This document shows positions 11,945-50,716 of a stretch of DNA of 64,000 nt, in pieces (within the stretch, counting starts at the first letter, position 1; the number at the start of each line of letters is the position of its first letter). This DNA is from Brevundimonas pondensis (GTDB taxonomy: Bacteria; Pseudomonadota; Alphaproteobacteria; Caulobacterales; Caulobacteraceae): the NCBI RefSeq assembly GCF_017487345.1, contig NZ_CP062006.1, positions 3,462,501 to 3,526,500 on the forward strand. Direction: 5' to 3'. Under the pieces are notes generated by a model, which saw only the letters and a list, made by a program, of their open reading frames with translations, did no database searches and was not told where the DNA came from. The translations under genes were made by a program, and so were the position numbers.

Positions 11945-11984
11945 GCGCTCAAGCAGCGGGCGACCGCGTCGCCCGCGATAGCGC
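11945..11984 (+). repeat. 40-bp dispersed palindrome, copy A
   Basis: A 40-bp element with outer arms GCGCT/AGCGC and an inner stem GGGCGA / TCGCCC around a CCGCG loop. It starts directly after the bidirectional terminator and ends 9 bases before the purH stop codon. It matches the copy at 37511 at 36 of 40 positions. See also the copies at 27036, 43673, 44102 and 50677. Confidence 0.8.
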
Positions 11985-11993
11985 TCTTCAGGC

Positions 11994-13598
11994 CTAGTGC
12001 CTGAAGACCCGAACACCTGTGAAGGCCATGGCGATGCCGCGTTCGTCAGCGGCGGCGATGACTTCGTCATCGCGGATCGAGCCGCCCGGCTGGATCACAG
12101 CCGTGGCCCCGGCGGCGACGGCTTCCAGCAGGCCGTCGGCGAAGGGGAAGAAGGCTTCGGACGCACAGGCCGAACCCTCGGCCAGCGAGTGGGCCAGACC
12201 CTTGGCCTCGCCGGCTTCCTTGGCGCGGATGGCGGCGATGCGGGCGCTGTCGCGACGGTTCATCTGACCGGCGCCGATGCCCGCCGTCTGGCCGTCCTTG
12301 GCGTAGACGATGGCGTTGGACTTGACGTGCTTGGCCACGGTGAAGGCGAACAGCATGTCCTGGATCTCGGTCGGCGTCGGCTGGCGACGCGTGACGATCT
12401 TCAGGTCTTCGGGCTTGATCAGGCTGCGGTCGCGCGACTGGACCAGGAAGCCGCCCGCCACCGAACGGAACACCTCGCCAGCGCCGTGCGGGTCGGGCAG
12501 GCCGTCGGTGATCAGCAGGCGCAGGTTCTTCTTGGCGGCGAAGACGGCCTTGGCCTCTTCGTTGGCGCCGGGGGCGATGACGACCTCGGTGAAGATGCCG
12601 GTGATGGCGCGCGCGTCTTCACCGTTCAGCGGGCGGTTGACGGCGATGACGCCGCCAAAGGCCGACACGGCGTCGCATTCCAGCGCGCGGGCGTAGGCTT
12701 CCGACAGATCCTTGCCGACGGCCACGCCGCAGGGGTTGGCGTGCTTGACGATGACGCAGGCCGGGGCCTCGAACTCGGCCACCAGCTCATAGGCGGCGTC
12801 GGCGTCGGCGATGTTGTTGTAGCCCAGCTCCTTGCCTTGGATCTGGGTGGCGTAGGCCACGCCCGGACGCTTCTCGCCGGTGCGATAGAAGGCGCCGGTC
12901 TGGTGCGGGTTCTCGCCATAGCGCAGCGTTTGCGCCAGCGAACCGGCGATCGACTTGCGGGCCGGTGCGGCGTCGTTCAGCTGACCGGCGAACCAGCCCG
13001 AGACGGCGGCGTCATAGGCGGCGGTGCGGGCGAAGGCGCGGGCGGCCAGTTGCTTGCGCAGGTTGAGCGAGGTCGAACCATCGGCCTTCAGGGCCGCGAC
13101 GATCAGGCCGATGCTTTCGGCGTCCACAGCGACGGCGACGTGGCCGTGGTTCTTCGAGCCCGAGCGGATCATGGCCGGGCCGCCGATGTCGATGTTCTCG
13201 ATGGCCGCTTCAAAACCGCCGCCGTCCTCGACCGTCTTCTCGAACGGATAGAGGTCGATCCAGACGATATCGATGGCGCCGATGTTGTGCTCGGTCATGG
13301 CGGCGGCATGGGCCGGGGCGTTGCGCACGCCCAGCAGGCCGCCGTGCACCACGGGGTGCAGGGTCTTGACCCGGCCGTCCATCATTTCCGGGAAGCCGGT
13401 CAGATCGGCCACGTCCTTGACCGGAAGGCCGAAGCCCGCGATCGCCGCCTTGGTGCCGCCGGTCGAGACCAGCTCGACGCCGAGACCGGCGAGCGTGCGC
13501 GCGGCGTCTTCCAGCCCCGCCTTGTCCGACAATGAAATCAGGGCGCGGACAGGTTTGATCGCGTCCGGGGCGGGCGGAAAGTCGGGAGCGGCGGGCAT
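11994..13598 (-). CDS. purH: Bifunctional AICAR transformylase / IMP cyclohydrolase PurH
   Basis: PurH carries out the last two steps of IMP synthesis. The N-terminal MGS-like cyclohydrolase domain shows [10 protein letters not shown] and [15 protein letters not shown]. The C-terminal transformylase domain shows the catalytic Lys-His in [12 protein letters not shown] and the AICAR site in [20 protein letters not shown]. Its 534 residues are the usual length. It is last in a minus-strand run after rpe and the heparinase-like gene, and ends at a shared terminator. Confidence 0.97.
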
Positions 13599-13692
13599 GG
13601 GCGGCGTCCGTTAACAGCTGGGGCGGGGAGATGGCGCGGCCTCTAGCACCATCGGGACGCGGCGTCAGCCCTACCGCCTATTTCCTGGCTGC

Positions 13693-15503
13693 CTAGTGCG
13701 GATCGCCCGCTGCGCCGGCGGGGCTCAGCTTCCAGCGGATCTTGGTGTCGGCGTCGGTGCGGGCGGAGCCGCGGACGACGATCTGCAGGGAGCGTCGGGT
13801 CAGGCCTTCATCGACGTGGACGGCGGGCTCGATGGCCACGTCGGGGCCGTCGCTGCGGAACCACCAGCCGCGCCCCGAATGGCCGCGCAGCAGGATGGAG
13901 CGGCGGTCGCGGGCCAGCGAGGCCTGGACGCCGGGTTCTAGCTGGAAGCGTAGGGCGTAGGGGGCGGCGATGGCGCGGGTCACGTCGGGGCGGCCTTCGG
14001 GCGGATGCAGGCGCTCCTCGGCGCGCAGTTCGTCGAGGCGCTGATCCAGATAGAGGCGGCGCTGATGCATCAGGCCATAGCCCGGCATCCAGCCGTCGTG
14101 CTCGACCTCGAGCCAGACGGCGCCGTCGCCTTCGCGGTGGTCGCGGCTGACATGCAGGGCCGGGCCGATCAGGCGCGGACCCAGAAGGTCGGCCTTCCAG
14201 CCGGACAGGGGCTCGCCCAGCGGCTGTTCGCCCAGCGTCAGCGTCGAGGCGCCCGGCGTCAGGCGCAGGGCCTGACGGTCCAGGGCGCGCGGGGTCCATC
14301 CGGCCGAGGTGAACAGGCGGTCGCGGCCGCAGACGACTTCCAGCGCGGCCGGTTGACCGCAGGCGGCGGCCGACCAGGCGCCGCGCGCCGGGGCCTCGAC
14401 ATCGACCATGACGGTCAGCAGGGGGCTGGAGATGCGCACCAGTCCGCCGACGGCGCCGCTGGCGGGCGGGGCGGGCGTGTCGTCATGGGCGCGAGCGGCG
14501 GCGACGCGCTCGGGCGTCGAGGGGCCGCCGCCCTGGAAGGCTGCCAGACGGCCGTCGGGCAGGGCGAGGACGCGAAGACTGGTGGTCAGGCGCGAGATGG
14601 CGGCGGCCACTGGCTCGGGCGTCGGCTCGGACAGCTGGGCCAGGGCGTCGTCCAGCGTCAGCAGATCGAGCAGCAGCTCCAGACCCATTTCCGGGGCGCG
14701 GGCGGCGTGATGGCCATCGGCGGCGACGGTGGTTTCCAGTGCAGCCATCAGGCGTTTCAGGGCCGTGCGGCGGACGCCGGCCCCGGCCTTGCCGGCCAGG
14801 GCGCAGCCGGCCACGGCGGCGGCGGTCAGACGCTCGGCCCGGCCCATCAGGCCGCCGGGCGGGCGCAGCAGTTGGCGGGCTTGCCTCGCCAGAATGTCGG
14901 TCAGGCGCAGACGCTCGAGCTCGGTCGCGACGCCCGCCAGACGCCGCCCGGCGCAGGCCAGATGATAGGTGCGGCGCGCCAGGATGTCGGGGTCCCACGA
15001 GAAGGGCGACCAGCGGTTGAAGATGTCGTCCCAGGCCAGGGTCAGGGCCAGGGCCTCACGCAGGCCGCGATCGCCATGGGCCATCATCTCGGGCATCCAG
15101 GCGAAGGCGTGCAGTTCGACGGCGAAGGCGCGGCTGGGGGTGGGGCGGTTCCACAGGTCGGCGGGACCCTCGGCGTCGAGGCTGAGCCCGGCCAGGGTGA
15201 AGCGGCCCGACAGCAGTGGACGCGGGGCCTCTTCGCGCAGGGGGCGGAAGTCGCGCGGGCTGACGGCGAAACCCTCGGCGCGGACGCCCTTCAGCGTCAC
15301 GGTATAGCCGGGCAGACCGTAGAGCTCGATCCACAGCTGGCGCGCGGCCAGCTGTCCGGCGACGGCGGCCCACAGCGCCGGGTCCGCCTTGGGCCCGCCG
15401 GCGGCGCGCACCGGGGTGCGGACCGGCGCGCCCTTGAGGCCGGGGATATGGCCCTCGGTCAGGCCGCCTTCCGTTTCGCGCGGGGCGAAGGGGCCGAGGG
15501 GGC

Positions 15504-15507
<4 letters not shown>
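13693..15507 (-). CDS. Heparinase II/III family protein
   Basis: A 604-residue protein with an alpha-helical N-terminal half and a beta-rich C-terminal heparinase II/III-like domain. Visible features include the segment FNRWSPFSWDPDILARRTYH and the tract ALHVSRDHREGDGAVWLEVEHDGWMPGYGLMHQRRLYLD. The frame is open far upstream, but that part is Arg/Pro-rich antisense of rpe. The GTG at 15507, overlapping the rpe stop as GTGA, is chosen instead. No signal peptide is seen. The gene commonly sits between rpe and purH in Caulobacteraceae. Polysaccharide lyase activity is only a family expectation. Confidence 0.85.
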
Positions 15508-16187
<680 letters not shown>

Positions 16188-16408
16188 GGTTCTGCGACTT
16201 ACGGCCATGCGGCGCGGGGGGCAAGCCGGGCTGCTGACGCAGGGGCGCGACCAGGCTCCGCGACAGGTGGTCATTGGCGCTTCGCGAACGGTCGGCGGTG
16301 GTCGTTGGCGAAGGCGTGGCGGTCACGGACGCAAGGCCGCTGGCGAGGTTCGGCGGCGCGTCGGAGGAAGGGGGCGACCTCTTCACCACACCCTCAAGGA
16401 CACCCGCC

Positions 16409-16825
16409 ATGATCCGCTCTCTCGCTCTCGTCGCCGCTCTGGCCTTCGCCGCTCCCGCCCTGGCGCAGAACGCCGACAACCGCCTGACCCTGACCTTCGA
16501 GACGGGCGCCGAGACCGGGGCGGTCCTGGTCGCTCTCTACGACAGCGAGGCCGCCTATGAAGGCGGGGCGCCGGCGCGGGTGGCCCAGGTCAATGTGGCG
16601 GCGGGCCAGCGTGAGGCGGTCTTCGACCTGCCCGCCGGGACCTATGGCATGAAGGCCGTTCACGACATCAACGGCAACGGCAAGATGGACGTCAATCCGT
16701 TCGGCATGCCGACCGAGCCCTACGCCTTCTCCAACAATGCGGTGGGCAACATGGGGCCGGCGAAGTGGGACCGCGCCCGCTTCGAGGTGTCGGCCGCGAC
16801 GGCCCAGACCATCCGCATCCGCTAA
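16409..16825 (+). CDS. Secreted DUF2141 domain protein
   Basis: A 138-residue protein with a clear Sec signal peptide (MIRSLALVAALAFAAPALAQ, cleavage after AQ). One small beta-sandwich follows, of the DUF2141 type: LTLTFETGAETGAVLVALYD, LPAGTYGMKAVHDINGNGKMD and MPTEPYAFSNNA. The DINGNGKMD stretch looks like a calcium-binding loop. An ATG inside the longer frame is taken because the signal peptide begins there. It is followed after 35 bases by an exported carotenoid oxygenase, so the two probably share a transcript. Function is unknown. Confidence 0.85.
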   Translation: MIRSLALVAALAFAAPALAQNADNRLTLTFETGAETGAVLVALYDSEAAYEGGAPARVAQVNVAAGQREAVFDLPAGTYGMKAVHDINGNGKMDVNPFGMPTEPYAFSNNAVGNMGPAKWDRARFEVSAATAQTIRIR

Positions 16826-16860
16826 GCCCAGACCCAACTTCAGAGTTCGACGAGACCACC

Positions 16861-18324
16861 ATGACCCCGACCCGCCGCACCCTGTTCATGGGCGCCGCCG
16901 CGCTCGCTGCCGCCCGCGTTCTGACCCCGGACCGCGTCTGGGCCGCGCAAGCCATGGCGGCGACCGCCGACTGGTCGCTGGCCACCGCCGACGTCGAGGG
17001 CGACGTGGCGCCGCGCGCCCTGCGCCTGGTTCATGGCCGGGCGCCCGGGGGGCTGTCGGGCAGCCTTTATCGCAACGGTCCGGCCAAGTTCCGTCGGCCC
17101 GGCGGCTCGTCCCAGCACTGGTTCGACGGCGACGGTCTGATCCGCCGCTGGCGGGTGCAGGATGGTCAGGCGACGCTGGCCGCCCGCTTCGCCGACACCC
17201 CCAAGCGGCGACAGGAGGCCGAGGTCGGCGCCATGCTGATGCCGGGCTTCGGCACGGTCGCCGACCCGCGCGCTCGCATCGGCTCGGCTGACGACGCCAG
17301 CCCGGCCAACACCTCGGTCCACAAGGTCGGCGGCAAGCTGTGGGCGCTATGGGAGGCGGGCTCGCCACTGGCCATGGACCCGGAGACGCTTGAGACCGAG
17401 GATTTCGTCGCGCTTCGCCCCGACTTGAAGAACATGCCCTTCCTGGCCCATCCGCGTATCGAGCCGGACGGCCGGATCTGGAACCTGGGTCTGAGCGGAC
17501 GTCAGGCCATGGTCTGGCGACTGGCGGCCAACGGCGCGCTTGAGGCGGCCGAGCTCATCCCCTTGCCGCGCGCCAGCTATATCCATGACTTCAGCGCCAC
17601 GGCCCGGCATCTGGTCATCGTCCTGCAGCCCTGGGTCCATGCGCGGAACGCCATGCCGGTGTCGGCGGCCTTCGAGTGGACGCCGCAAGCCGGGACCCAG
17701 GTGCTGGTGGTCGATAAGGCGGATCTGTCCCAGCGCCGCATCTACGAGCTGCCGTCCTTCGGCTTCTTCCACGTCGGCGACGCCTGGGAGGGGGCGGACG
17801 GGGTGATCCGTTTCGACCTGTGCGTCCACAAGGACATGGATTTCGCCGCGCGCGGCGCCCATGAGGTGCTGAACGGCGTGCCCCTGGGCCATGACCCGGC
17901 CGAGCTGGCCATGGTGGTGCTGGAGCCTGGCGGGCGCGGACGGCTGGAACGCACCGGGGTGGTAGGCGAATTCCCGCGCAGCGATCCGCGCCGCGCCGGC
18001 CTGGCCCGCCGCTTCAGCCTGCACACGACGGGCGAACGCGCCGACCGGCCCCTGGCCTCGGCGGTGGGGGTGACGGACTGGACGTCAGGCCGCACGCGCT
18101 CCTTCGACTTCGGCCCCGGCCATGTGACCGACGAGATGGTCTATGTGCCCAAGCCGGGCGGCACGCACGAGGCCGACGCCTGGCTGGTCGGCCCGACGAT
18201 CAACCTGAAGGCCGGGGTCAGCGAACTGCATGTCCTGGACCTGCTGCACGTCGAGGACGGCCCTATCGCCACCTGGCGCGCCGACGTAGCCCTGCCGGCG
18301 GCGTTTCACGGGAACTGGGTGTGA
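16861..18324 (+). CDS. Carotenoid oxygenase (RPE65 family) with Tat-like leader
   Basis: A 487-residue non-haem iron dioxygenase of the carotenoid / lignostilbene cleavage family. The four iron-ligand histidines can be placed at residues 197 (LAHPRI), 242 (YIHDFSAT), 304 (FFHVGDAWE) and 483 (FHGNWV), with spacing close to that of characterised members. The N terminus TRRTLFMGAAALAAARVL has the twin Arg and hydrophobic stretch of a Tat leader, so export of the folded enzyme is likely. That is unusual, since most members are cytosolic. The substrate (carotenoid, apocarotenal or stilbenoid) is open. Confidence 0.9.
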   Translation: MTPTRRTLFMGAAALAAARVLTPDRVWAAQAMAATADWSLATADVEGDVAPRALRLVHGRAPGGLSGSLYRNGPAKFRRPGGSSQHWFDGDGLIRRWRVQDGQATLAARFADTPKRRQEAEVGAMLMPGFGTVADPRARIGSADDASPANTSVHKVGGKLWALWEAGSPLAMDPETLETEDFVALRPDLKNMPFLAHPRIEPDGRIWNLGLSGRQAMVWRLAANGALEAAELIPLPRASYIHDFSATARHLVIVLQPWVHARNAMPVSAAFEWTPQAGTQVLVVDKADLSQRRIYELPSFGFFHVGDAWEGADGVIRFDLCVHKDMDFAARGAHEVLNGVPLGHDPAELAMVVLEPGGRGRLERTGVVGEFPRSDPRRAGLARRFSLHTTGERADRPLASAVGVTDWTSGRTRSFDFGPGHVTDEMVYVPKPGGTHEADAWLVGPTINLKAGVSELHVLDLLHVEDGPIATWRADVALPAAFHGNWV

Positions 18325-18333
18325 GGGACGAGG

Positions 18334-19215
18334 TTAGTGAGTGGAGGTAGGGATCAATCGGATACCTGAGCCCTCTGCTTCATTCTCGTCCGTGACCCTC
18401 ATATCGAGCGTCAGTCCCGTTTGGCTCGAGAGCTTGAACGCCTGAGCGAGCAAGGCGCTGACGTCGTCACCTGGCATTGCGGTTCTCACGTCCAGATACC
18501 AAGACCACCTGTCCTCTTCTGGCCAGTGCGCGAGCGCAAGCCAGGCCTCACGAATGCGGTTCTCGGCGGAAAGGGAGCGGGTCAGAGCGTCCAGAAGCTC
18601 TTCAGGCCGCTCCTTGGGCGCCCCGAGCATGACTTGCGTGTCCTTCTGGATGGTGATCCTGGCAGGCTTGCCTAGGACGGCGCTGAGCTGGTCAGCGGTC
18701 CAGTGGACGCCATAGGCGGAGCCAGGGTTCAGGAAGGCGCCGCGTTCGGCGACCAGTTCGAGAAGGGTGGCGCCGTTCATCTGGATGAAGCCCGTCCCGG
18801 CGCCAAAGGCGTCGACAATCCTCTGTTCGGAGGTGAAGACGGCAGCCACTGGCGCGCCGTCAGGAGCGGGGACGTTCAGCAGAGATACGAGCTCTGACGC
18901 TTGCAGAGTTCGCCATCCGCTGTCGTCATGTGCTTCGGGTGTCGCCGCCAGAAGGTCCGACGCCAGCATGGCGTCCTGGAATTGGCGGCGTTTCGCGGGG
19001 TTCGTGCTGGCGGCGATCAAGAGAGCTTCAAGCTCGTTCAGGGCGACGAAGGGCGGCGTGCTGGCGACGGGCGTTTTGTGGATTTCCGCGTCCAGCGTCC
19101 GATCCGGCGCCACGACAGGGCTCTTGGCACTATCAATCGTGGTCTTGCCGAACAGCTTTCTGAGCCACTTGTTCACAGTCCTGGTCGCCCTGCACAGTTT
19201 TGACGGAACAAGCAT
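18334..19215 (-). CDS. SseB family protein
   Basis: A protein of about 293 residues with the SseB N-terminal domain (VPAPDGAPVAAVFTSEQRI, FLNPGSAYGVHWTADQLS) and the C-terminal SseB domain (APKERPEELLDALTRSL, REAWLALAHWPEEDRWSWYLDV). The family name comes from serine sensitivity in E. coli; the biochemical role is unknown. The frame opens with a TTG at 19239, but the ATG at 19215 is preferred. A GTG at 19176 with AGGG upstream is a good alternative. Base composition is visibly less GC-rich than its neighbours, hinting at a different history. Confidence 0.78.
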   Translation of the reverse strand: MLVPSKLCRATRTVNKWLRKLFGKTTIDSAKSPVVAPDRTLDAEIHKTPVASTPPFVALNELEALLIAASTNPAKRRQFQDAMLASDLLAATPEAHDDSGWRTLQASELVSLLNVPAPDGAPVAAVFTSEQRIVDAFGAGTGFIQMNGATLLELVAERGAFLNPGSAYGVHWTADQLSAVLGKPARITIQKDTQVMLGAPKERPEELLDALTRSLSAENRIREAWLALAHWPEEDRWSWYLDVRTAMPGDDVSALLAQAFKLSSQTGLTLDMRVTDENEAEGSGIRLIPTSTH

Positions 19216-19272
19216 CGGCGAAGCTTGGCGGGAGGGCAATGTCTGAAGCGCGAGGCAGGGGCTCGCTGCCGT

Positions 19273-20780: not shown

Positions 20781-20864
20781 GCGCGCAAGCTAGTCGCGCT
20801 TCGACCCTCAGTGCAACGGCGCCACAGGGGGCGGCTCATTTGCGGAGGCTTCCAGCGTGGCCGT

Positions 20865-20926: not shown

Positions 20927-20959
20927 CGATTGGGCTGGAACACAGGGATTGGGATACAA

Positions 20960-26116: not shown

Positions 26117-27019
26117 ATGTCCATTCTCGTCAACAAAGACACCAAGATCATCGTGCAAGGCCTGACCGGCAAGACCGGCGGCTTCCACACCGAACAGGCC
26201 CTGGCCTATCACGGCACCCAGATGGTCGCCGGCGTGCACCCCACCAAGGGCGGCACCAACTGGACCGGCTCGCACGGCGAAACCCTGCCGATCTACGGCT
26301 CGGTCGCCGAAGCCAAGGAACGCACGGGCGCCGACGCCACGGTCATCTACGTCCCGCCGGCAGGCGCCGCCGACGCCATCATCGAGGCCATTGAGGCCGA
26401 GATCCCCTTCATCACCTGCATCACCGAAGGCATCCCGGTGCTGGACATGGTGCGCGTCAAGGCTCGCCTGGACCGTTCCAACTCGCGCCTGCTGGGCCCG
26501 AACTGCCCCGGCATCCTGACCCCGAACGAGTGCAAGATCGGCATCATGCCGGGCAACATCTTCTCCAAGGGTTCGGTTGGCGTCGTCTCGCGCTCGGGCA
26601 CCCTGACCTATGAAGCCGTGTTCCAGACCACCAACGCCGGCCTGGGTCAGACCACGGCCGTCGGCATCGGCGGCGACCCGGTCAAGGGCACCGAGTTCAT
26701 CGACGTTCTGGAAATGTTCCTGGCCGACCCGGAAACCACCTCGATCATCATGATCGGTGAAATCGGCGGCGGCGCCGAAGAAGACGCCGCTCAATTCCTG
26801 ATCGACGAAGCCAAGAAGGGCCGCTCCAAGCCCATGGCCGGCTTCATCGCCGGTCGTACGGCTCCGGCCGGCCGCACCATGGGCCACGCCGGCGCCATCG
26901 TTTCGGGCGGCAAGGGCGACGCGGAATCCAAGATCGCCGCCATGGAGGCCGCGGGCATCCGCGTCTCGCCGTCGCCGGCGCGCCTGGGCCACACGCTGCT
27001 GGAAGTGCTGAAGGGCTAA
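26117..27019 (+). CDS. sucD: Succinyl-CoA ligase (ADP-forming) alpha subunit
   Basis: A 300-residue partner of SucC. The N-terminal CoA-binding Rossmann domain begins [24 protein letters not shown]. The middle has [19 protein letters not shown]. The active-site histidine that is phosphorylated is in the segment [15 protein letters not shown]. The gene runs from an ATG at 26117 and is followed by a 40-bp palindrome and an intrinsic terminator, which close the sucCD transcript before sucA. Confidence 0.98.
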
Positions 27020-27035
27020 GAGGCCTTTCAGCAGG

Positions 27036-27075
27036 GTCGCTACGCTCGCGACGCGGTCGCTCGCCGCTTGGGCGA
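27036..27075 (-). repeat. 40-bp dispersed palindrome, copy E
   Basis: Lies 16 bases after the sucD stop. Read on the minus strand, it shares the central GGCGAGCGACCGCGTCGCGA block with the copy at 37511 almost exactly. It diverges in the outer arms, which are less well paired here. Confidence 0.7.
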
Positions 27076-37510: not shown

Positions 37511-37550
37511 GCGCTCAAGCAGCGAGCGACCGCGTCGCGAGCGTTAGCGC
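37511..37550 (+). repeat. 40-bp dispersed palindrome, copy B
   Basis: Starts GCGCTCAAGCAGCGAG and ends GAGCGTTAGCGC. It is identical to copy A at 36 of 40 positions. It ends 10 bases from the stop codon of the minus-strand DUF1134 gene, the same arrangement as copy A with purH. Confidence 0.8.
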
Positions 37551-37560
37551 TTCTTCCTTC

Positions 37561-38183
37561 TTAGAAAGGAAGAATATTCCGCTGGCGGCTGTAGCTCATG
37601 GTGCCGACATTGGCGCCCAGGCGCAGGCCGACGCCGGTGCGAATGGGAGCCAGGACGATGCCGTCGGCGCGCTGATAGTTCACGCCCAGGCCGGCGACCA
37701 GATAGGCCGAGCCCTCGACCCCGGATAGCGGCGATAGAGCATGTCCGGGTGGTAGAGGCCGTAGACCAGGGTGAAGACCCGGCTGGCGTTGCCGCCGACA
37801 TCCCAGCCGATCGAGATGCCCTGCCAGAAGACTTCCTGGGAGGCGGACAGGTCCTTCATGTGCAGGGCGCCGCGGCCGTAGCGCACGCCGATGGCGGCGG
37901 CGCCGGCGGCTTCCTCGCCGGCGATATAGGCGGTCGGACGGTCGCCCTGTTCGGCGAAGATGCGCTCGATGGCCGCGCCCATGGCTTCGGCGGCGATGCC
38001 CATTTCGCGCGAGCCGGCGGCGACCAGTTCCTCGAAGGTATAGGCCTGAGCGTTCTGATCCGATGCGATGGGGTAGTTGGGATCGGTCGGCTGGCGCGTC
38101 GAGGCGCAGGCGCCGAGGCCCGCAGGAAGGGCGCCGGCGGCGGCGAGGCCAAGGCTGGTGCGGATCAGTTGGCGGCGATGCAT
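37561..38183 (-). pseudogene. DUF1134 lipoprotein-like gene, frameshifted
   Basis: The ATG at 38183, behind AGGAG, starts a Tat/lipoprotein-like leader (MHRRQLIRTSLGLAAAGALP, then LGAC). The DUF1134 domain follows (SREMGIAAEAMGAAIERIF, LHMKDLSASQEVFWQG, WDVGGNASRVFTLVYGLYH). After YRRYPG the frame runs to a premature TGA at 37680. Adding one G in the run at 37719-37722 restores the family C terminus (GSAYLVAGLGVNYQRADGIV, then GTMSYSRQRNILPF and TAA at 37561). So it carries a one-base deletion, real or artefactual. The function of DUF1134 proteins is unknown. Confidence 0.8.
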
Positions 38184-38361: not shown

Positions 38362-38396
38362 CGGGCCTCAAGTAGCGCGTAAGCGCGGTAGGCCCG
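38362..38396. other. Intergenic hairpin downstream of the YqhA-type gene
   Basis: CGGGCCT (38362-38368) pairs with AGGCCCG (38390-38396), and an inner GCGC / GCGC pair closes a GTAA loop. It lies past the YqhA terminator on the minus strand and may act as a back-up stop. The inner CTCAAGTAGCG recalls the 40-bp repeat family, but it is only 35 bases. Confidence 0.4.
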
Positions 38397-38397: not shown

Positions 38398-38427
38398 AAA
38401 AGAAAACACTAGGGCGAAGCCCTAGTG
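38398..38427 (-). terminator. Intrinsic terminator overlapping the YqhA stop codon
   Basis: CACTAGGGC (38407-38415) pairs with GCCCTAGTG (38419-38427) around a 3-base loop. On the minus strand it is followed by TTTTCTTTTT. The TAG stop of the gene lies inside the stem. Confidence 0.88.
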
Positions 38428-38973
38428 CTTGTCCGTCTTGGCCGCGACCCAGTCCATGACCGCCAGCAGCACCCCGGAGGCCACGAAGGTCAGGTGGATG
38501 ATGACCGCCCACATCAGGCCGGCCTCGTCCAGGGGATGGCCGGGCTTGCCGATGTTCATGAAGCTCTTGAGCAGATAGATGGCCGATATCGCCACGATGG
38601 AGGCGATCAGCTTCATCTTCAGGCCCGAGAAGTCGACCGAGCCCATCCACGGCGGCCGGTCCACATGATTCTCATCCAGATCCAGCTTGGAGACGAAGTT
38701 CTCGTAGCCGGAATAGAGGACGATCAGCAGCAGGTTGCCCGCCAGCGACAGGTCCACCAGGCTGAGGATGGCCAGGATGGCGCCATCGGACCCCATATGG
38801 CCTTCGCCGATGATGAAGGCCTGGGGCACGTAGTAGATCAGCTCGCGCACGAAGACGACGAGCAGCATGACCAGGGCCGCCACCAGGCCCAGGTAGAAGG
38901 GGGCCATCAGCCAGCGGGCGCGGAACAGGTTGCGCTCGAAGGTCGTCTCGGCCCAGGGCTTCTTCTCAGCCAT
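38422..38973 (-). CDS. YqhA family (UPF0114) membrane protein
   Basis: A 183-residue inner-membrane protein with four predicted helices. Family sequence includes FERNLFRARWLMAPFYLGLVAAL, GDGAILAILSLVDLSLAGNLLLIV-like text, SGYENFVSKLD and KLIASIVAISAIYLLKSFMN. Function is unknown. It follows pheT by two bases on the same strand, so it is the last gene of the pheST transcript, which ends at the terminator overlapping its stop. Confidence 0.9.
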   Translation of the reverse strand: MAEKKPWAETTFERNLFRARWLMAPFYLGLVAALVMLLVVFVRELIYYVPQAFIIGEGHMGSDGAILAILSLVDLSLAGNLLLIVLYSGYENFVSKLDLDENHVDRPPWMGSVDFSGLKMKLIASIVAISAIYLLKSFMNIGKPGHPLDEAGLMWAVIIHLTFVASGVLLAVMDWVAAKTDKH

Positions 38974-41785: not shown

Positions 41786-41796
41786 GGAACTTGATC

Positions 41797-42186: not shown

Positions 42187-42187
42187 G

Positions 42188-43264: not shown

Positions 43265-43333
43265 GGTCCGCAGCGTCTAGCCCGACACGGCCGTCACGCA
43301 AAGCCTTCAGCGTCGATCAGGCTCTGTCGGCCC

Positions 43334-43537: not shown

Positions 43538-43627
43538 CGGCAAAGCCTCCTCAGCCGCCGGGTCGCCATTCGAACCGGCTGTCGAACCCCAACGCTTGAC
43601 CGGACGAAAAGGTCAGGCCCGGCCATG

Positions 43628-43661
43628 AAAAACGCCCGCCCCGGCGATCGGGGCGGGCGTT
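43628..43661 (-). terminator. Intrinsic terminator of the rpmI-rplT transcript
   Basis: A perfect 12-bp stem, AACGCCCGCCCC (43631-43642) with GGGGCGGGCGTT (43650-43661), a 7-base loop and a T-run on the minus strand. It lies 62 bases after the rplT stop, beyond repeat copy C. Confidence 0.9.
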
Positions 43662-43672
43662 GTTTCTCTTTT

Positions 43673-43712
43673 GCGCTCGCGCTCGGCTCTCGGAGCCTCG
43701 CTGCTTGAGCGT
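43673..43712 (-). repeat. 40-bp dispersed palindrome, copy C
   Basis: On the minus strand it starts ACGCTCAAGCAGCGAGG and ends GAGCGCGAGCGC. It sits 11 bases after the rplT stop and before the terminator, so it would be present in the mRNA 3' end. Confidence 0.72.
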
Positions 43713-43723
43713 GATCGCGAGAC

Positions 43724-44080
43724 TTAGGCGGCCAGGGCGGCGCGCACCTTGTCGGCGATGGCCTTGAAGCCGGCTTCGTCAGCGGCGATGGCGGCTAGGA
43801 CCTTGCGGTCCAGTTCGATGCCGGCCTTGTCGAGGCCATGGATGAACTGCGAGTAGGTGAAGCCTTCGACGCGAGCAGCAGCGTTGATGCGCTGGATCCA
43901 CAGGGCGCGGAACGAACGCTTCTTGTTGCGACGGTCGCGGTAGGCGTACTGGCCGGCGCGGTCGACGGCGGCCTTGGCCGTGCGGATCGTATTCTTGCGG
44001 CGGCCGTAGAAGCCCTTGGCCTGCTTCAGAACCTTCTTGTGCTTGGCGTGGGACGTAACGCCCCGAGTAACGCGAGCCAT
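43724..44080 (-). CDS. rplT: 50S ribosomal protein L20
   Basis: A 118-residue primary rRNA-binding protein of the large subunit. [68 protein letters not shown] is textbook L20. It follows rpmI as usual. In many bacteria L20 represses its own operon through mRNA structure; the rpmI-rplT gap here instead contains one of the 40-bp palindromes. Confidence 0.98.
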
Positions 44081-44101
44081 GTTTTTATTTCCTTCGGGAA
44101 G

Positions 44102-44141
44102 TCCCTAGCGCTCGACCCGCGGGGTCTCGCTGCTCGAGGGA
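44102..44141 (-). repeat. 40-bp dispersed palindrome, copy F
   Basis: Between rpmI and rplT. On the minus strand it reads TCCCTCGAGCAGCGAG at the start and GAGCGCTAGGGA at the end. The outer arms have changed together (TCCCT with AGGGA, instead of GCGCT with AGCGC), so the stem is kept although the sequence differs. Confidence 0.68.
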
Positions 44142-44191
44142 CTGTCGTTCAAATTCAGTGTGACAGGATGATCAGTGATGCAGCGCGCCGA

Positions 44192-44389
44192 TCAGGCGTA
44201 CGGCATGTAGGACTTGATCTTCTTGGCGTCGGCGTCAGCCATGACCGAAGTGCCGCGGTTCTGGCGGATGTACTTCGAGTTGTGGCTGATCAGGCGGTGG
44301 CGCTTGCCGGCGACGCCAGCCTTGACCTTGCCCGTGGCCGTGAATTTGAAGCGCTTCTTGGCGCCCGACTTCGTCTTCAGCTTCGGCAT
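44192..44389 (-). CDS. rpmI: 50S ribosomal protein L35
   Basis: A 65-residue basic ribosomal protein. [31 protein letters not shown] is diagnostic. It has an AAGAGAG ribosome site. It comes 174 bases after the MFS stop, so its promoter should lie in that gap (44390-44562), where no clear signal was picked out. It is co-transcribed with rplT. Confidence 0.97.
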
Positions 44390-44562
44390 TTTTCTCTCTC
44401 TTAATTGAGGGACGGGCGTCCTTCGGGCTGCGAGAGCCCCAGGTTCGATCGTCCGTTGACGAACCGCCCAGGCATGCCTGTTCGCCCGGCGGTCCGGTAC
44501 GCGAAGGCGCGGCTTCTACGCCAATCGGGGGCTGGAGGCAAGAAGAGTCCGTGCAAATGGAC

Positions 44563-45840
44563 TCAGGCCTCGGTGGCCCGGCGACGGGCCGCGCGCCCGG
44601 CGTTGATCGCCATGACCGCCGCCGGAACCGTCAGCGCCGCGCCGACCAGAAAGGGCCAGTCCGCCCCTGCGGCAGAATAGAGGACGCCAGCGACCATGGG
44701 ACCGAAGATGCGCGCCATGGACCCTGCCGCCATGTTCAGTCCCAGCATGGCGCCCTGCCGGTCCGGCGGCGACGCCCGACTGATCAGAGCCGAGATATTG
44801 GGCATGGCCAGGGACATTCCGCAGGCGCCGATGCCCATGACGACAGGAATGATCCAGCCGGATGACACCGGAACCACGAACAGACCCAGATCGATCCGCC
44901 CGGCCGGGAACCAGGCCGGGGGCGCTATGACCTGCAGGACCAGGGAGGCGCCGAACAACAGCATGCCGGCCGCTAGAACTCGGGCCTCGCCGAAACGTCT
45001 CGCCAGTCGCCCAGCCAGCAAGCCCTGATTCACGGCCGAGACCAGCCCGACGATCATGAAACTCAACCCGACTTCGCGCGCCGTCCAGGCGTAGCGGTTC
45101 TCGGCCCACAGGCCAAAGGCGCTTTCCATGGCCGAGAAGCCGGCCAGATAGATCAGACTGACTATCAGAACCCGAGACACCACGGCATCGGCGCGCGCGA
45201 AATGCAGACCCGACAGAAAGGCGGGGCGTGGCGCCGCCGGATCGGCCCTGGCCCGGCTTTCCCGCAGGAAAAAGATAACGCCCAGGGCCGCCAGCACAGC
45301 TGCGCCGGAGGCCGCGAAGATCGGCAGCTGGTAACCCACATGGCCCATCTGCGGCTGCGCCAAGAGGCCGCCCATGCCCGGTCCGACGATGAAGCCCAGG
45401 CCGAAGGCGGCGCCGATCAGGCCCATGCGTCCGGCGCGACGTTCCGGCGGAGTGACGTCAGCGATATAGCCCTGCACCGTCGAGATATTGCCCGCCCCCA
45501 GGCCGGTGAACAGCCGCACCAGCACCGCCGCCCAGATATTGGGCGCGAAGGCCAGCAGCAGGTAACCGGCCGCATTGGCCGCCAGGGTGGCCAGCAGAAC
45601 CGGCTTGCGTCCGATCCGGTCGGACAGGCGCCCCCAGAAGGGCTCGGCGAAGAACTGACCAAGGGAATAGGCCGAGAACAACAGGGTGATCTGCCACGGC
45701 TCGGCCTGGAGGCTTCGAGCGAAGAAGGGCAGCAGGGGCACCACCAGGCCGAACCCGACCAGGTTGATGAAGACCACGGCGAACAAGACCGCCAGGGTCG
45801 GCGTGCCGGCGGCGCGAGCAGGGATGATCGGAGACCTCAT
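44563..45840 (-). CDS. MFS transporter of the TCR/Tet-like group
   Basis: A 425-residue, 12-helix major facilitator protein. The loop 2-3 motif is FWGRLSDRIGRKPVLLATLAANAAGYLLLAFAP. The drug/H+ antiporter-like helix 5 motif appears as RAGRMGLIGAAFGLGFIVGPGMGGLLA. These place it with TetA-like exporters, but the substrate is unknown. It sits between infC and rpmI, genes that are contiguous in many bacteria, and an infC terminator cuts it off from the upstream gene. Confidence 0.88.
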   Translation of the reverse strand: MRSPIIPARAAGTPTLAVLFAVVFINLVGFGLVVPLLPFFARSLQAEPWQITLLFSAYSLGQFFAEPFWGRLSDRIGRKPVLLATLAANAAGYLLLAFAPNIWAAVLVRLFTGLGAGNISTVQGYIADVTPPERRAGRMGLIGAAFGLGFIVGPGMGGLLAQPQMGHVGYQLPIFAASGAAVLAALGVIFFLRESRARADPAAPRPAFLSGLHFARADAVVSRVLIVSLIYLAGFSAMESAFGLWAENRYAWTAREVGLSFMIVGLVSAVNQGLLAGRLARRFGEARVLAAGMLLFGASLVLQVIAPPAWFPAGRIDLGLFVVPVSSGWIIPVVMGIGACGMSLAMPNISALISRASPPDRQGAMLGLNMAAGSMARIFGPMVAGVLYSAAGADWPFLVGAALTVPAAVMAINAGRAARRRATEA

Positions 45841-45870
45841 GGTGCTTCGCCTACCGGGTCAGGGCGCAAA

Positions 45871-45902
45871 AGCAAACGCCCCGGCCATGCGGCCGGGGCG
45901 TT
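45871..45902 (-). terminator. Intrinsic terminator of infC
   Basis: A perfect 12-bp stem, AACGCCCCGGCC (45875-45886) with GGCCGGGGCGTT (45891-45902), and a 4-base loop. It is followed on the minus strand by TTTGCTTTT. It lies 24 bases after the infC stop. Confidence 0.88.
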
Positions 45903-45926
45903 CCTGATCTGTCGATCGAGGTGCGA

Positions 45927-46460
45927 TCAGCGCGGCGCCAGGATCATGATCATCTGGCGGCCTTCCATACGCGGCGCGTATTCGACCTTGGCGACTTCGT
46001 CGAAATCGGCCTGCACCTTGTTGAGCAGCTTCATGCCCAGTTCCGGGTGCGCCATTTCACGACCACGGAAGCGCAGCGTCACCTTGACCTTGTCCCCTTC
46101 GTCGAAGAAGCGGTGCATGGCCTTGGCCTTCACCTCATAGTCATGGGTGTCGATGTTCGGGCGGAGTTTGATTTCCTTGAGCTCGACGACCTTCTGGCGT
46201 TTGCGCGCCTCGGCTTTCTTCTTCTGCTCCTGGAAACGATGCTTGCCGTAGTCCAGGATCTTGCAGACAGGCGTCTCGGCGTTGCCGACGATCTGGACCA
46301 GATCCAGGCCGGCCTCTTCGGCGGCTTCCAGGGCGGCGGACAGGGGCATGACGCCCTGCTTTTCGCCGTTCTGATCGATCAGCAGAACGCGGGTGGCGCG
46401 GATTTCCTGGTTGATGGGCGGCCCGTCCTTGACGGGCGGCGCTTGCATGGGACGGCGAAT
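45927..46460 (-). CDS. infC: Translation initiation factor IF-3, ATT start
   Basis: IF-3 checks start-codon pairing on the 30S subunit. The core sequence [52 protein letters not shown] and the C-terminal [18 protein letters not shown] are clear. An ATG exists at 46448, but the codon ATT at 46460-46458 is in frame four codons upstream. It gives (M)[14 protein letters not shown], like other alphaproteobacterial IF-3 proteins, and has AAGGA at the right distance. Rare starts on infC are a known autoregulation device, so ATT is chosen (177 residues). Confidence 0.93.
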
Positions 46461-46574
46461 GGGCGTCGTTTCCTTATGTGGTCAGATAAGAGGTCGATAA
46501 ATCTCGCAGGGATCAGCGCGCGACAGAGCGGCGCGTTCCCGGCGGGCGGAATATGACGATAGAGCCCCTGAAAT

Positions 46575-47528
46575 TCAAGGCTGGTCGGGGTTTGCGCCGC
46601 TGATGAAAGCGTCGTGCAGCGCCAGGACCGCCGCGACCGTCTGGTCGACGGTCAATTCCGTAATCGGTCTGAACTCGCCGCGTGCCGGGCTAGAGGCCAG
46701 AACCCGGCCCTTCGGCCCCCAGGGCGCCTTGTGCCACCACTCGCTGGGACCGAAGAGGCCAAGCGTCGGCGTTCCGGTTGCAGCGGCCACGTGCATCAGG
46801 CCGGAATCATTGCCGACGAACAGGCGCGCGCGGGCGATGGCCGCTGCCGAGGCCAGGATGTCGCCGCGACCCACGCAGTCGATCCCGCGAAGGCCCGCCG
46901 CCATCAGGGCGGGGGCGGCCGCCGGGTGATCGCCCGGGCCGCCGACCAGCATGAAGCGCCAGCCGTCGAAACGGGGCTCGGCCTTCAGTCGTTCGACCAG
47001 GGCGGCCCAGCGGTCGGAGGGCCAGCTGCGGTCCGCCGCCGTCGAGATGGGCGCCAGGGCCAGGATGGGCGCCGGATCCTCGCCGATGATCGCCGCCGCC
47101 TGGGAACGGGCCTGATCGTCGAGGAAGATCTCGGGTTCCATGACCGCTTGGGCCTTCATCATGCGCGAGAAGGTCTCGACCTTGGCCAGACCGGTCTCCC
47201 AGGAGCGGTTGTAGATGCGGCGCTCGCCCGCGCGCAGCAGATAGGCCAGGCCCGAACCGCGCACATCGACCGCCATGGCCCAGCGCGTGCCGACCGTCGC
47301 CCGCCACAGGGCGCGCCAGTGACCGGCCGCCTTCTGCTTGGGCCAGGGGATGACCTTGACCACGCCGGGCGCGGCGCGGAACAGGGCCGCCGCCGTCGGG
47401 CCACAGGCCACGGTGATTTCGGCTCCCGGAACCTGGCGTCCGATTTCACGGATCGCGCCGGAGGACATGACGCAGTCGCCGATCCGGTCGGAGGTGACGA
47501 ACAGGACCTGCGGCGCTGATCCGCTCAT
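46575..47528 (-). CDS. Glycosyltransferase family 9 (heptosyltransferase-like), copy 1
   Basis: A 317-residue GT-B enzyme of family 9, which adds heptose or a related sugar to the lipopolysaccharide core. VLFVTSDRIGDCVMSSGAIREI is the N-terminal motif. LFVGNDSGLMHVAAATGTPTLGLFGPSEWW is the nucleotide-sugar binding motif. The ATG at 47528 overlaps the stop of the second GT9 gene as ATGA. It is paralogous to that gene. The exact sugar is not known. Confidence 0.88.
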   Translation of the reverse strand: MSGSAPQVLFVTSDRIGDCVMSSGAIREIGRQVPGAEITVACGPTAAALFRAAPGVVKVIPWPKQKAAGHWRALWRATVGTRWAMAVDVRGSGLAYLLRAGERRIYNRSWETGLAKVETFSRMMKAQAVMEPEIFLDDQARSQAAAIIGEDPAPILALAPISTAADRSWPSDRWAALVERLKAEPRFDGWRFMLVGGPGDHPAAAPALMAAGLRGIDCVGRGDILASAAAIARARLFVGNDSGLMHVAAATGTPTLGLFGPSEWWHKAPWGPKGRVLASSPARGEFRPITELTVDQTVAAVLALHDAFISGANPDQP

Positions 47529-48514
47529 GCCGAGGCGTCCGACGGCTGAGCGACATAGGCGTCGTAGAGATCCAGCGTCGCCGCAAAGACCGCCTCCACC
47601 GTCAGGTCCTCGATGGGTGCGAACTGGCCGCGCGTGTTGTTGGAGGCGACGGTGCGGGTTTTCGGGCCGCGCGGTCCGTACAGCCACCATTCCGTCGGCC
47701 CGAACAGGCCCAGTGTCGGCGTTCCCGCAGCGGCGGCCACATGCATCAGACCGGAGTCGTTGCCGACGAACAGGGCGGAACGGCTGATGGCGGCGGCCGA
47801 GGCCAGGATGTCGCCCTTGCCGACAAAATCGATACCCCGGTCGCCAGCGGCCGACAGGGCCGGGGCTGCGGGCGGGTGGTCGCCAGGGCCGCCGACCAGC
47901 ATGAAGCGCCAGCCGTCGAAGCGGGACTCGGCCTTCAGCTTCTCGACCAGGGCGCCCCAGCGGTCGGCAGGCCAGCTCTTGCCCTTCTGGTGGGCGATGG
48001 GCGCCAGGGCGATGATCGGCCCGGGGCCGGCGCCGTCGGCCAGTTGCGGGTCGATGACGGCGGCCGCCTCGGCGCGGGCGCGACCGTCGATGTAGTGCTC
48101 GGGCTCCAGCGAATGCGGGGCCTGCATCAGGCGCGACACCACCTCGACCTTGGGGACGCCGGTTTCCCAGCCGCGATTATAGATGCGGCGCGTCCCGGCC
48201 CGGATCAGCCAGCCCAGGGCCGAACCGCGCGTGTCGATGACCACGTCCCACGGCTGCTTCACCACCTCAGCCCACAGACGGAACCAGTGCGAGGCCCACT
48301 TGCCCTTGTTGACGACGATGATCCGCTCGACGCCGGGGGCGGCGCGGAAGAAGGGCGCGGGAGGGCCGCCGGCGGCGACGGTGATCCGGGCGCCGGGCCA
48401 CTGGCGGTTGATCTCGCGCACCACGCCCGAGGCGATGACGCTGTCGCCGATACGGTTGGGGCTGATGAACAGCACCCGGGCGCCGGACGCGGATGCTTGC
48501 TGGTTGTCGGACAC
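47525..48514 (-). CDS. Glycosyltransferase family 9 (heptosyltransferase-like), copy 2
   Basis: A 329-residue paralog of the gene at 46575 and first of the pair. N-terminal motif VLFISPNRIGDSVIASGVVREINR; C-terminal LFVGNDSGLMHVAAAAGTPTLGLFGPTEWW. It starts with GTG at 48514. The two proteins are about 85-90 percent identical by eye across roughly 80 residues of the C-terminal domain, but much less in the N-terminal acceptor domain. This fits duplicated enzymes that now add sugar to different acceptors. Confidence 0.88.
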   Translation of the reverse strand: MSDNQQASASGARVLFISPNRIGDSVIASGVVREINRQWPGARITVAAGGPPAPFFRAAPGVERIIVVNKGKWASHWFRLWAEVVKQPWDVVIDTRGSALGWLIRAGTRRIYNRGWETGVPKVEVVSRLMQAPHSLEPEHYIDGRARAEAAAVIDPQLADGAGPGPIIALAPIAHQKGKSWPADRWGALVEKLKAESRFDGWRFMLVGGPGDHPPAAPALSAAGDRGIDFVGKGDILASAAAISRSALFVGNDSGLMHVAAAAGTPTLGLFGPTEWWLYGPRGPKTRTVASNNTRGQFAPIEDLTVEAVFAATLDLYDAYVAQPSDASA

Positions 48515-48585
48515 GCGGATCAGCCTTCACTTCCCTGAGGTTTTTTCGTTACCAGTCCAGGGAGCGTTGCGCGAGAGAGGAAGCC

Positions 48586-49326
48586 ATGTCCGACATCCAG
48601 ACCCTGAGCCGCCCCGACGGCGAGACCCTGGCCTTCAAGACGGTCAAGGGCGCCGGCCCGACCGTGATCTGGATCGGAGGCTTCCGTTCGGACATGGAGG
48701 GGACCAAGGCTCTGGCGCTGGACGTCGCTGCGCGCGAACGCGGGTGGAACTACGTCCGCTACGACCACTTCGCCCACGGCCAGTCCTCGGGCGACTGGAG
48801 GCAGGCCACCATCGGTCGCTGGCGCGAGGACGCCGTCGCCCTGATCGACAGCCTTCAGGGGCCGGTGATCCCGGTCGGCTCATCCATGGGCGGCTGGGTC
48901 GCCCTGCTGGCGACCTTGGCGCGGCCCGAAAGGGTCAAGGGCCTGGTCCTGGTCAATCCGGCCCAGGACTTCACCGAAAAGCTGATGTGGCCCGGTCTGG
49001 CCGACCACGAACGCCAGGTCATCCTGCGCGAGGGCGAGACGGTCATTACCGAGGAGGGGCTGGGGTCCTACGTCCTGACGCGGCGGATGTTCGAGGAGGC
49101 GCGCGACTGGCTGCTGCTGGACGGGGTGATCGAGATCACGGCGCCGATCCATGTGCTGCAAGGCCGCGCCGACGACGTGGTGCCGTGGCGCCATCAGGTC
49201 GAGCTGGCCGAACGCCTGACCGGCGGCGACCTGCGTCTGGACCTGATCGAGGGCGGCGACCACCGGCTGTCGACGCCGCGCGATCTGACGCGTCTGATCG
49301 AGGCGGTGGAGGCGATGCGGGGCTGA
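48586..49326 (+). CDS. Alpha/beta hydrolase
   Basis: A 246-residue alpha/beta hydrolase with a nucleophile elbow GSSMGGW, an acidic residue in HVLQGRADDVVPW and a catalytic His in EGGDHRLS. VIWIGGFRSDMEGTKAL at the N terminus resembles palmitoyl-thioesterase / ABHD10-like esterases. The ATG at 48586 has a GAGAGAGGA ribosome site; the frame also extends upstream, but that part is not hydrolase-like. Its promoter is shared with the divergent GT9 pair. The substrate is unknown. Confidence 0.85.
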   Translation: MSDIQTLSRPDGETLAFKTVKGAGPTVIWIGGFRSDMEGTKALALDVAARERGWNYVRYDHFAHGQSSGDWRQATIGRWREDAVALIDSLQGPVIPVGSSMGGWVALLATLARPERVKGLVLVNPAQDFTEKLMWPGLADHERQVILREGETVITEEGLGSYVLTRRMFEEARDWLLLDGVIEITAPIHVLQGRADDVVPWRHQVELAERLTGGDLRLDLIEGGDHRLSTPRDLTRLIEAVEAMRG

Positions 49327-49344
49327 CCTCGCACCGCCGTCCGA

Positions 49345-50649
49345 TCACAGGATGAACCGGCTCAGGTCGATGTTCCTGGCCAGCTCGCCGACCTTTTCGC
49401 GCACCATGTCGCCGTCGAAGGTCAGGGTCTGGCCCGACAGGTCCGAGGCCTTGAAGCTGGTCTCTTCCAGCACCCGCTCCAGCACGGTCTGCAGCCGGCG
49501 CGCGCCGATGTTCTCGACGGTGGAGTTGGCGGCCACGGCGGCGTCGGCCATGGCCTCGACCGCGTCGTCGGTGAAGACCAGCGCGACCCCTTCGGTCTCC
49601 AGCAGGGCCTGGTTCTGACGGATCAGGTTGGCCTCGGGCTCGGTCAGGATGCGCTTGAAGTCGTCGCGGGTCAGGGCCTTCAACTCGACCCGGATCGGCA
49701 GGCGGCCCTGCAGTTCGGGCAGCAGGTCCGACGGCTTGGCCACGTGGAAGGCGCCCGAGGCGATGAACAGGACATGGTCGGTCTTCACCGGCCCGTACTT
49801 GGTCGATACCGTCGTGCCCTCGATCAGGGGCAGCAGGTCGCGCTGCACGCCTTCACGCGACACATCGGCCCCGGACGCGCCCTGACGCGCGGCCACCTTG
49901 TCGATCTCGTCAAGGAAGACGATGCCTTCGTTCTCGGCCAGCAGCAGGGCTTCCTTGGTCAGGCTCTCCTGATCCAGCAGCTTGTCGCTTTCCTCGGTGG
50001 TCAGGGGCGCCATGGCCTCGGCCACCGTCAGCTTGACCGTCTTGGTGCGCCCGCCGCCCATCTTGCCCAGCAGGTCGGACAGGTTCAGCAGACCGACGTT
50101 GCCGCCGCCGCCCGGCATATCCAGCCCTTGCAGGGGCGACGCCGTATCGGCCAAGGCGATCTCGATCTCCTTGTCGTCCAGTTCTCCGGCGCGCAGCTTC
50201 TTGCGGAAGGCGTCGCGGGTGGCGGGCTGCGAACCTGCGCCCACCAGGGCGTCCAGAATGCGCTCCTCGGCCTGACCTTCGGCGCGCGCCTTGACGCCCG
50301 AGCGGCGCTTGTCACGCACCATGACCAGAGCGCTCTCGACCAGATCGCGCATGATCTGATCGACGTCGCGACCGACATAGCCGACCTCGGTGAACTTGGT
50401 CGCCTCGACCTTGAGGAAGGGCGAGCCCGCCAGCCTGGCCAGACGCCGGGCGATCTCGGTCTTGCCGACGCCCGTCGGGCCGATCATCAGGATGTTCTTG
50501 GGCGTGACCTCGTCGCGCAGATCCTCGGGCACGCGCTTGCGGCGCCAGCGGTTGCGCAGGGCCACCGCCACGGCGCGCTTGGCGTCGTCCTGGCCGACGA
50601 TATAGCGGTCCAGTTCGGAAACGATTTCGCGGGGAGAAAGGTCGGTCAT
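49345..50649 (-). CDS. hslU: HslUV protease ATPase subunit HslU
   Basis: AAA+ unfoldase of the heat-shock protease HslUV. The 434-residue protein has [33 protein letters not shown], Walker [16 protein letters not shown], the pore motif in VGYVGRDV, the intermediate domain (about residues 110-210), Walker [13 protein letters not shown] and the C-terminal sensor region ending LSRFIL, which inserts into HslV. It is 69 bases downstream of hslV, with one 40-bp palindrome in the gap. Confidence 0.97.
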
Positions 50650-50676
50650 ACTTTTTTCCAGAAGGGCTTGTGTGCG

Positions 50677-50716
50677 GCGCTATCGTTCGCCGCGCGGCGG
50701 CTCACTGCTTGAGCGC
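50677..50716 (-). repeat. 40-bp dispersed palindrome, copy D
   Basis: Only two bases after the hslV stop and 27 before the hslU start. On the minus strand it begins GCGCTCAAGCAGTGAG and ends ACGATAGCGC, keeping perfect GCGCT/AGCGC outer arms. Being inside an operon, it must be read through. Confidence 0.75.

Follow-up and report, generated by a model that had tools for sequence, protein, structure and literature searches.

Repeats at gene ends in the window

The 64,000-nucleotide stretch of Brevundimonas pondensis analysed here (assembly GCF_017487345.1, contig NZ_CP062006.1, positions 3,462,501 to 3,526,500, forward strand; hereafter the window) carries, just 3' of several genes, copies of a short palindromic repeat of the repetitive extragenic palindromic (REP) kind in form and placement. 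Six had been described in an earlier note made from the sequence alone. The copies, and the hairpins that enclose neighbouring stop codons, are given below in window positions.

11945-11984, + strand: full 40-nt copy, 9 nt 3' of the purH stop codon, antisense to purH (sequence and model match)
11985-12007, no strand: perfect 9-bp hairpin that encloses the purH stop codon in its loop and directly abuts the element (sequence and stem search)
27006-27033, no strand: hairpin whose loop contains the sucD stop codon; apart from one mismatch, its right arm is the reverse complement of the sucD end (sequence and stem search)
27037-27075, - strand: 39-nt copy, 17 nt 3' of the sucD stop codon, antisense to sucD (sequence and model; same-place copy in 10 of 30 sucD loci)
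37511-37550, + strand: full copy, 10 nt 3' of the stop of the eipA (DUF1134) reading frame (sequence and model)
37551-37574, no strand: 9-bp hairpin across the eipA stop codon, flush with the element (read from the sequence)
38364-38394, + strand: seventh copy, of a short subfamily, with the same outer stem and internal loop and a shorter apical hairpin (model; orthologous copy in genome G001)
43673-43712, - strand: full copy, 11 nt 3' of the rplT stop codon, sense to rplT (sequence and model)
44102-44141, - strand: full copy, sense, in the rpmI-rplT gap, 50 nt after rpmI and 21 nt short of rplT (sequence and model; 13 of 30 rplT loci have one at this place in this orientation)
50677-50716, - strand: full copy, 2 nt after hslV and before hslU, sense (copy at the orthologous place in G001 inverted)

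All six copies stand where the earlier note had placed them; its length of exactly 40 bp holds for five, but the sucD copy is best read as 39 nt. Its distances from the stop codons are likewise correct (9 nt for purH, 16-17 for sucD, 11 for rplT, 50 for rpmI, 2 for hslV and, by sequence, 10 for DUF1134/EipA), and none of the six lies inside a called gene. The eipA gene itself, at 37561-38183 on the - strand, is split over two frames (Pfam EipA positions 2-109 and 107-160), so that the gene finder ends short of its stop. The 31-nt seventh member had been overlooked. Adjoining it is a terminator-like hairpin (38404-38430, - strand), one arm of which runs over the stop codon of the gene next to it. 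In the hairpins at purH and eipA, the bases leading up to the element repeat the last codons of the gene as an exact reverse complement, and the stop codon lies in the loop; sucD has the same arrangement with one mismatch and 3 nt to spare before the element.

A family spread through the genus

A covariance model built from the six window copies (R1), run with filters off, scored these copies, on which it had been built, at 55.7-66 bits, and the rest of the window at no more than 16.7 bits, including 15.9 bits for the short member. In the whole 3.55-Mb genome under study (G000), R1 found at least 37 places at E<=0.0032, the next match having E=0.4; this count is a lower bound, the best 150 of 2825 candidates having been scored. 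A second model (R2) was made from 35 of these whole-genome copies together with an 8-nt tail, two 30-nt forms being left out. It gave 44 matches in G000 at E<=0.01 (40 among the matches listed), and the family has at least 40 copies in this genome. The copy at 3350537, given only 16.8 bits by R1, scored 57.7 with R2, and the copy at 3378413, absent from the R1 matches listed, scored 52.7. R2 also raised the short window member to 24.3 bits and revealed the subfamily to which such forms belong, GGCCTCAAGTAG-CGCGAAGCGCG-ATAGGCC, whose outer stem length and loop are those of the full unit. The covariance-model scan that the earlier note had proposed yielded many further copies with covarying stems, intergenic and close to stop codons and not equally common in coding sequence.

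Within the genus, with the best 50 candidates scored per genome, a match was found in 117 of the 121 Brevundimonas genomes searched; the four without one (G042, G047, G057 and G083) are 99-100% complete and 2.5-2.7 Mb long. At the level of the family Caulobacteraceae, 66 of 199 genomes and 4 of 22 genera had a match. For the order, the cut-off of E<=1e-4 was passed in 20 of 200 genomes, within 3 of 41 genera; by search match, two of these genera belong to other families. Three other genera of the family, read at 27 of 28 chosen loci, have a unit that is smaller or has a different tip: in one it is mostly GCGCTCAAGCAGC-GAA-GCGGTAGCGC and near variants, plus an A-rich tail, and in the other two, other apical hairpins stand inside the same frame. 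Because the tip is what differs, the outer stem, loop and tail look like an old core and the apical hairpin like a variable insert.

Both stems covary by Watson-Crick pairs

In one orientation, the six-copy consensus reads GCGCT CAAGCA GC GA GCGAC CGC GTCGC GA GC GNT AGCGC, comprising a 5-bp outer stem, an internal loop of 6 versus 3 nt, then 2 bp and a tandem G-A step, and finally an apical stem of 5 bp closed by a CGC triloop. The asymmetric internal loop, CAAGCA opposite GNT, is fixed, and the variable apical hairpin usually closes on CGC. The full unit also has a tail of about 8 nt, CC followed by an A-rich stretch (A at 0.47 for +4 to +9, against about 0.2 around). Six of the 35 copies used for R2 are 39 nt long, with one base missing at position 34 and C or G at position 11.

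Covariation is seen in both stems, and the pairs exchanged are nearly all Watson-Crick. Among the six window copies, 97.2% of cells remain paired; 12 cells show double changes, where shuffles give 3.6 and slid controls 0-2. The 35 G000 copies have 83 double-change cells, as compared with 25.4 for shuffles. In 25 of these 35 the G-A step reads GA/GA, and in 7 it is fully Watson-Crick. Pair types were counted in a larger sample of 90 copies from 79 contig loci, among the matches listed, gathered with a pattern that leaves six pairs free and fixes one outer pair. The 540 cells at the free pairs comprise 524 Watson-Crick, 5 G-U, 5 A-C (each equivalent to G-U on the opposite strand) and 6 other combinations. 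For comparison, 25 tRNAs drawn from the same material have 20 G-U among the 300 cells of their acceptor and T stems; G-U is rarer in the repeat (Fisher 6e-6, or 7e-4 with A-C counted in). This near-absence of G-U pairs speaks against upkeep by RNA selection alone.

Apical hairpins differ at shared sites

Three apical types dominate the 90 copies: CGA/TCG (30), CCG/CGG (23) and GCT/AGC (14), where independence predicts 10.8, 12.5 and 1.8. The apical pairs are linked to one another, their mutual information of 0.27-0.64 exceeding that of every one of 2000 shuffles. The apical stem is not linked to two outer pairs (mutual information 0.720, shuffled mean 0.722), a test weakened because 48 of the 90 outer stems are of one type.

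Orthologous sites were compared at 30 listed loci out of 40 or 41 genomes with a match. Of the 30 sucD loci, 10 have a copy after the gene, always antisense; of the 30 rplT loci, 13 have one in the rpmI-rplT gap, always sense. Twelve of these 13 were aligned, one (L135, 37 bits) being left out. Their outer stems vary within narrow limits, whereas four apical stems occur, GCGAC, GGCCC, GCCGC and GACCC; 28 cells show double changes against 7.7 in shuffles, and the outer stem extends outward, three added pairs being formed in 12, 9 and 6 of the 12 copies. A weaker short-form match of 18-31 bits, placed upstream of rpmI by its distance, is present in 12 of the 30 rplT loci (for example L136:1197-1234 and L146:2114-2151).

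Between G000 and G001, whose aligned blocks are 80-95% identical, 16 of 32 G000 matches could be mapped; G001 has a copy at 12 of these sites and none at 4. By reading of the sequences, the apical type differs at 6 of the 12 shared sites, and the hslV copy is inverted. For G026 against G001 (92.5% identity), mapping succeeded for 21 of 32 matches, and 20 of these sites have a copy; apical type or tandem number differs in several. Neighbouring tandem units may themselves be of different types. In addition, a block rearranged between G000 and G001 starts exactly at the first base of the repeat in both genomes (G000 3500011, which is window position 37511, and G001 C1:574374), so that one inversion breakpoint coincides with a copy.

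Copies avoid genes and often lie close to stop codons

Placement was assessed in 906 kb of three genomes, with our own gene calls trained on the window, for 92 of 94 matches (71 full and 21 short). None of the 92 overlaps a called gene, although 88.9% of the sequence is coding. Their flanking genes are co-directional in 57 cases, convergent in 31 and divergent in 4 (binomial p 2e-9 for divergent); among 37 R1 copies, 25 are co-directional, 10 convergent and 1 divergent, and 1 was flagged as overlapping an open reading frame. The tail end faces a stop codon in 67 cases, at no more than 20 nt in 43, and the other end in 52, that near in 7 (Fisher 2e-8). Most copies sit directly after a stop codon or ahead of the next gene in an operon, the tail turned to the gene boundary. 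Both orientations relative to the transcript occur. Among the 150 matches listed from the three genomes, 18 tandem pairs have a period of 45-52 nt, and all 8 inverted pairs within 250 bp have their tails outward. The tail was also considered as a ready-made stop or start codon, for which the signal was too weak: CTA, TTA or TCA at +1 to +6 reached 0.47 of the 92 against 0.34 further out, and ATG 0.18 against 0.13.

Hairpins over stop codons are not confined to the window. With a stem score of at least 7, such a hairpin was found at 16 of 47 stops that have a copy at least 7 nt away, against 10 of 373 control stops (Fisher 1e-10, a value that is too small because orthologous sites were counted more than once). 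In a few of these 16 cases the hairpin is terminator-like and lies next to a short copy. Gene-end repeats give Brevundimonas annotation a feature class, with some members inside operons, such as rpmI-rplT and hslV-hslU.

In G000, copies cluster around the parS-like sites

The GC skew of G000 changes sign, from negative to positive, at about 3.34-3.44 Mb; a group of six parS-like sites occupies 3.346-3.374 Mb, with one more at 3.280. Of the 40 listed copies, 21 fall within 320 kb (3.222-3.542 Mb, 9% of G000), about tenfold over the rest. Full matches number 21 and short ones 11 in these 320 kb, whereas the 400 kb sampled elsewhere contain 1 and 2. The limits of the stretch were set once the cluster was known; the Rayleigh test, which is independent of that choice, gave p values of 7e-8 for G000 (mean 3.43 Mb), 7e-5 for G110 and 4e-6 for G089, among the 150 matches listed. 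Two copies sit beside parS-like sites, at 3350537 (8 bp from the site at 3350513) and 3374055 (near one at 3374158). The former has an orthologous copy in G001, likewise beside a parS-like site.

No REP transposase was found with the repeat

The earlier note had read the elements as REP or bacterial interspersed mosaic element (BIME) type, or else as a shared 3' mRNA signal, and had advised looking for a REP-associated tyrosine transposase (RAYT). The first part stands: the copies are dispersed, palindromic, intergenic and stop-proximal, form tandem and inverted pairs, and fall into subfamilies with complementary stem changes. A shared mRNA signal may also be involved. The expected enzyme did not turn up in G000 (Y1_Tnp 0). 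Y1_Tnp is present in 4 of 121 genus genomes, with no repeat copy within about 1.5 kb on each side of the four genes, and the RAYT model NF047646 gave 2 of 61, one above the cut-off. With no transposase found in G000 and no copies within that distance of the four Y1 genes, a RAYT-mobilised element in the present genus is not supported.

What the repeat may be

Our preferred reading, to which we assign a probability of about 0.5, is that Brevundimonas has a family of REP-like repeats that persists with no REP transposase of its own. Existing sites would acquire new apical hairpins when copies undergo conversion or template switching with one another, the conserved loop strands serving as anchors, and the outer stem would stay with the site during the exchange. 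Perfect pairing would be kept by hairpin-templated correction, and copies would survive only at gene boundaries, where a transcribed hairpin may do no harm or may help slightly, capping the mRNA at its 3' end or separating its cistrons. We infer both this copying route and the function from sequence comparison. A further proposal is put forward only tentatively, namely that a repeat without a transposase evolves by cassette exchange. Its apical hairpins would be traded in place via the two conserved loop strands, the outer stem and, in most cases, the orientation remaining those of the site, and its perfect complementarity would come from hairpin-templated DNA copying and not from RNA selection.

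Several points weigh against this preferred reading, in addition to the predominance of one outer-stem type already mentioned. The folding energy of one copy is unremarkable (z -0.6 as RNA, 0.3 as DNA), minimum-energy folding being uninformative at this GC content, with predicted folds that differ from the covariation-supported structure. The models and patterns used favour intact loops, and because the pairing pattern fixes the loops, old or broken copies are under-sampled. For the rpmI-rplT covariation, two of five measures are not outstanding (45 and 174 of 500 shuffles reach them), and the apical differences could be compensatory drift instead of conversion. At the sites examined we found no bounded recent insertion, the empty sucD and rpmI-rplT sites differing by more than the unit. 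Retention at these same two sites fits a useful element as well as an inert one, and a transposase unlike Y1_Tnp could exist.

The repeats might instead be fossils of ordinary REPs, spread as whole units through single-strand transposition by an ancestral RAYT or IS200-type Y1 transposase that was then lost, the copies now decaying and recombining. Form, subfamilies, dimers and gene-end placement match the GTAG and CGTC REPs as PMC3733652 presents them, a smaller hairpin relative with an A-rich tail exists in other genera of the family, and 4 of 121 genus genomes hold a Y1 transposase. We nevertheless consider this origin rather unlikely: most of the 117 genomes have plentiful copies close to the consensus, an odd finding for fossils, no copy lies within about 1.5 kb of the four Y1 loci, there is no GTAG tag, and whole-unit copying does not predict unlinked outer and apical stems. 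A cis-acting mRNA element under selection, in which a protein or ribonuclease would read the internal loop and G-A step and so stabilise the upstream message or uncouple neighbours, would account for the same site and orientation across species (sucD 10/30, rpmI-rplT 13/30), the compensatory changes, the avoidance of divergent regions and the second hairpin at stop codons (16/47 versus 10/373 control stops). It sits poorly with the near-absence of G-U pairs, which an RNA stem tolerates, with the use of both orientations relative to the transcript, including the hslV copy inverted in G001, and with the many orthologous sites that have no copy, and we judge it unlikely.

The palindrome could also be a chromosomal DNA site, bound by a nucleoid or segregation protein, with copies marking the origin domain. 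Watson-Crick-only pairing suits DNA, and 21 of the 40 listed copies lie in the 9% of G000 around parS. That 320-kb stretch was nonetheless delimited after the fact, clustering is weaker in G110 and G089, where the origin is unlocated, and gene-end placement is left unexplained; moreover, such a site would not be essential, because four genus genomes at least 99% complete have no match. We regard this explanation as quite improbable. Finally, GC-rich hairpins just after stop codons, many of them between convergent genes (31 of 92), recall intrinsic, possibly bidirectional, transcription terminators. However, neither side of the copies has a U-tract (flanks of 90 and 92 copies), no terminator was called on the stem of any of the six copies in the window, calls being no more frequent than in shuffles, and the one call that overlaps a copy end (37539-37552) uses another stem; terminator-like hairpins instead stand beside some copies, as at 38404-38430. 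Terminators are thus disfavoured, and we give them next to no credence.

Comparison with known repeat families

The Caulobacter CcrM-associated intergenic repeats (CIR) exceed 100 bp and contain the methylation site GANTC. The Brevundimonas unit, with 40-48 nt and no GANTC in its consensus, differs from them in this size and motif. Like it, CIR are strictly intergenic repeats of the same bacterial family (PMC10969869). That the repeat belongs to no named family, as the earlier note had suspected, agrees with our searches: no Rfam family scored above its gathering threshold in the window, and the open-licence literature, largely as titles and abstract openings, yielded no description of it. PMC6006769 does not mention Brevundimonas, and in two genome papers on Brevundimonas the words looked for occur in connection with CRISPR only.

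How REP-like sequences spread and remain perfect without a transposase is an open question, which the CGTC class also poses (PMC3733652). The Brevundimonas family offers a clean system for it, with a whole genus, tens of copies per genome, orthologous sites with and without the unit, and outer and apical stems that are not linked; its pairing pattern can separate DNA-level from RNA-level upkeep.

Like REPs of the GTAG/RAYT type, which number tens to hundreds, the repeat is a short, dispersed intergenic palindrome with tens of copies per genome, and with subfamilies that carry alternative complementary stem residues and with tandem and inverted, BIME-like dimers. The likeness to GTAG REPs and REPINs with RAYT transposases, the subject of PMC2817692 and PMC3116915, extends to the irregular hairpin, the arrays, and the intercistronic and 3' placement. 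By contrast, no GTAG tetranucleotide stands at the hairpin base in the flanks of the 90 and 92 copies, no RAYT was found in the genome and no copy within about 1.5 kb of the four genus Y1 genes, and G-U pairs are rare, whereas G-T pairing is frequent in GTAG repeats according to PMC3733652. The CGTC-tagged superfamily, as that source describes it, shares other features with the repeat: its members are short palindromes, mostly intergenic and next to stop codons, and occur mostly in alphaproteobacteria. They have no dedicated transposase, and none was found for the repeat; they end in a short unpaired tail, CCA there and CC-rich here, CC being followed in the repeat by T or C more often than by A. 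The Brevundimonas repeat differs from them, by alignment and flanks, in having no CGTC at the hairpin base and no A-T in its first two stem pairs, which start with G-C instead, as well as in its asymmetric internal loop, its variable apical hairpin and its very few G-T pairs. We conclude that the repeat is REP-like in form and placement and stands outside the GTAG and CGTC classes as they are defined.

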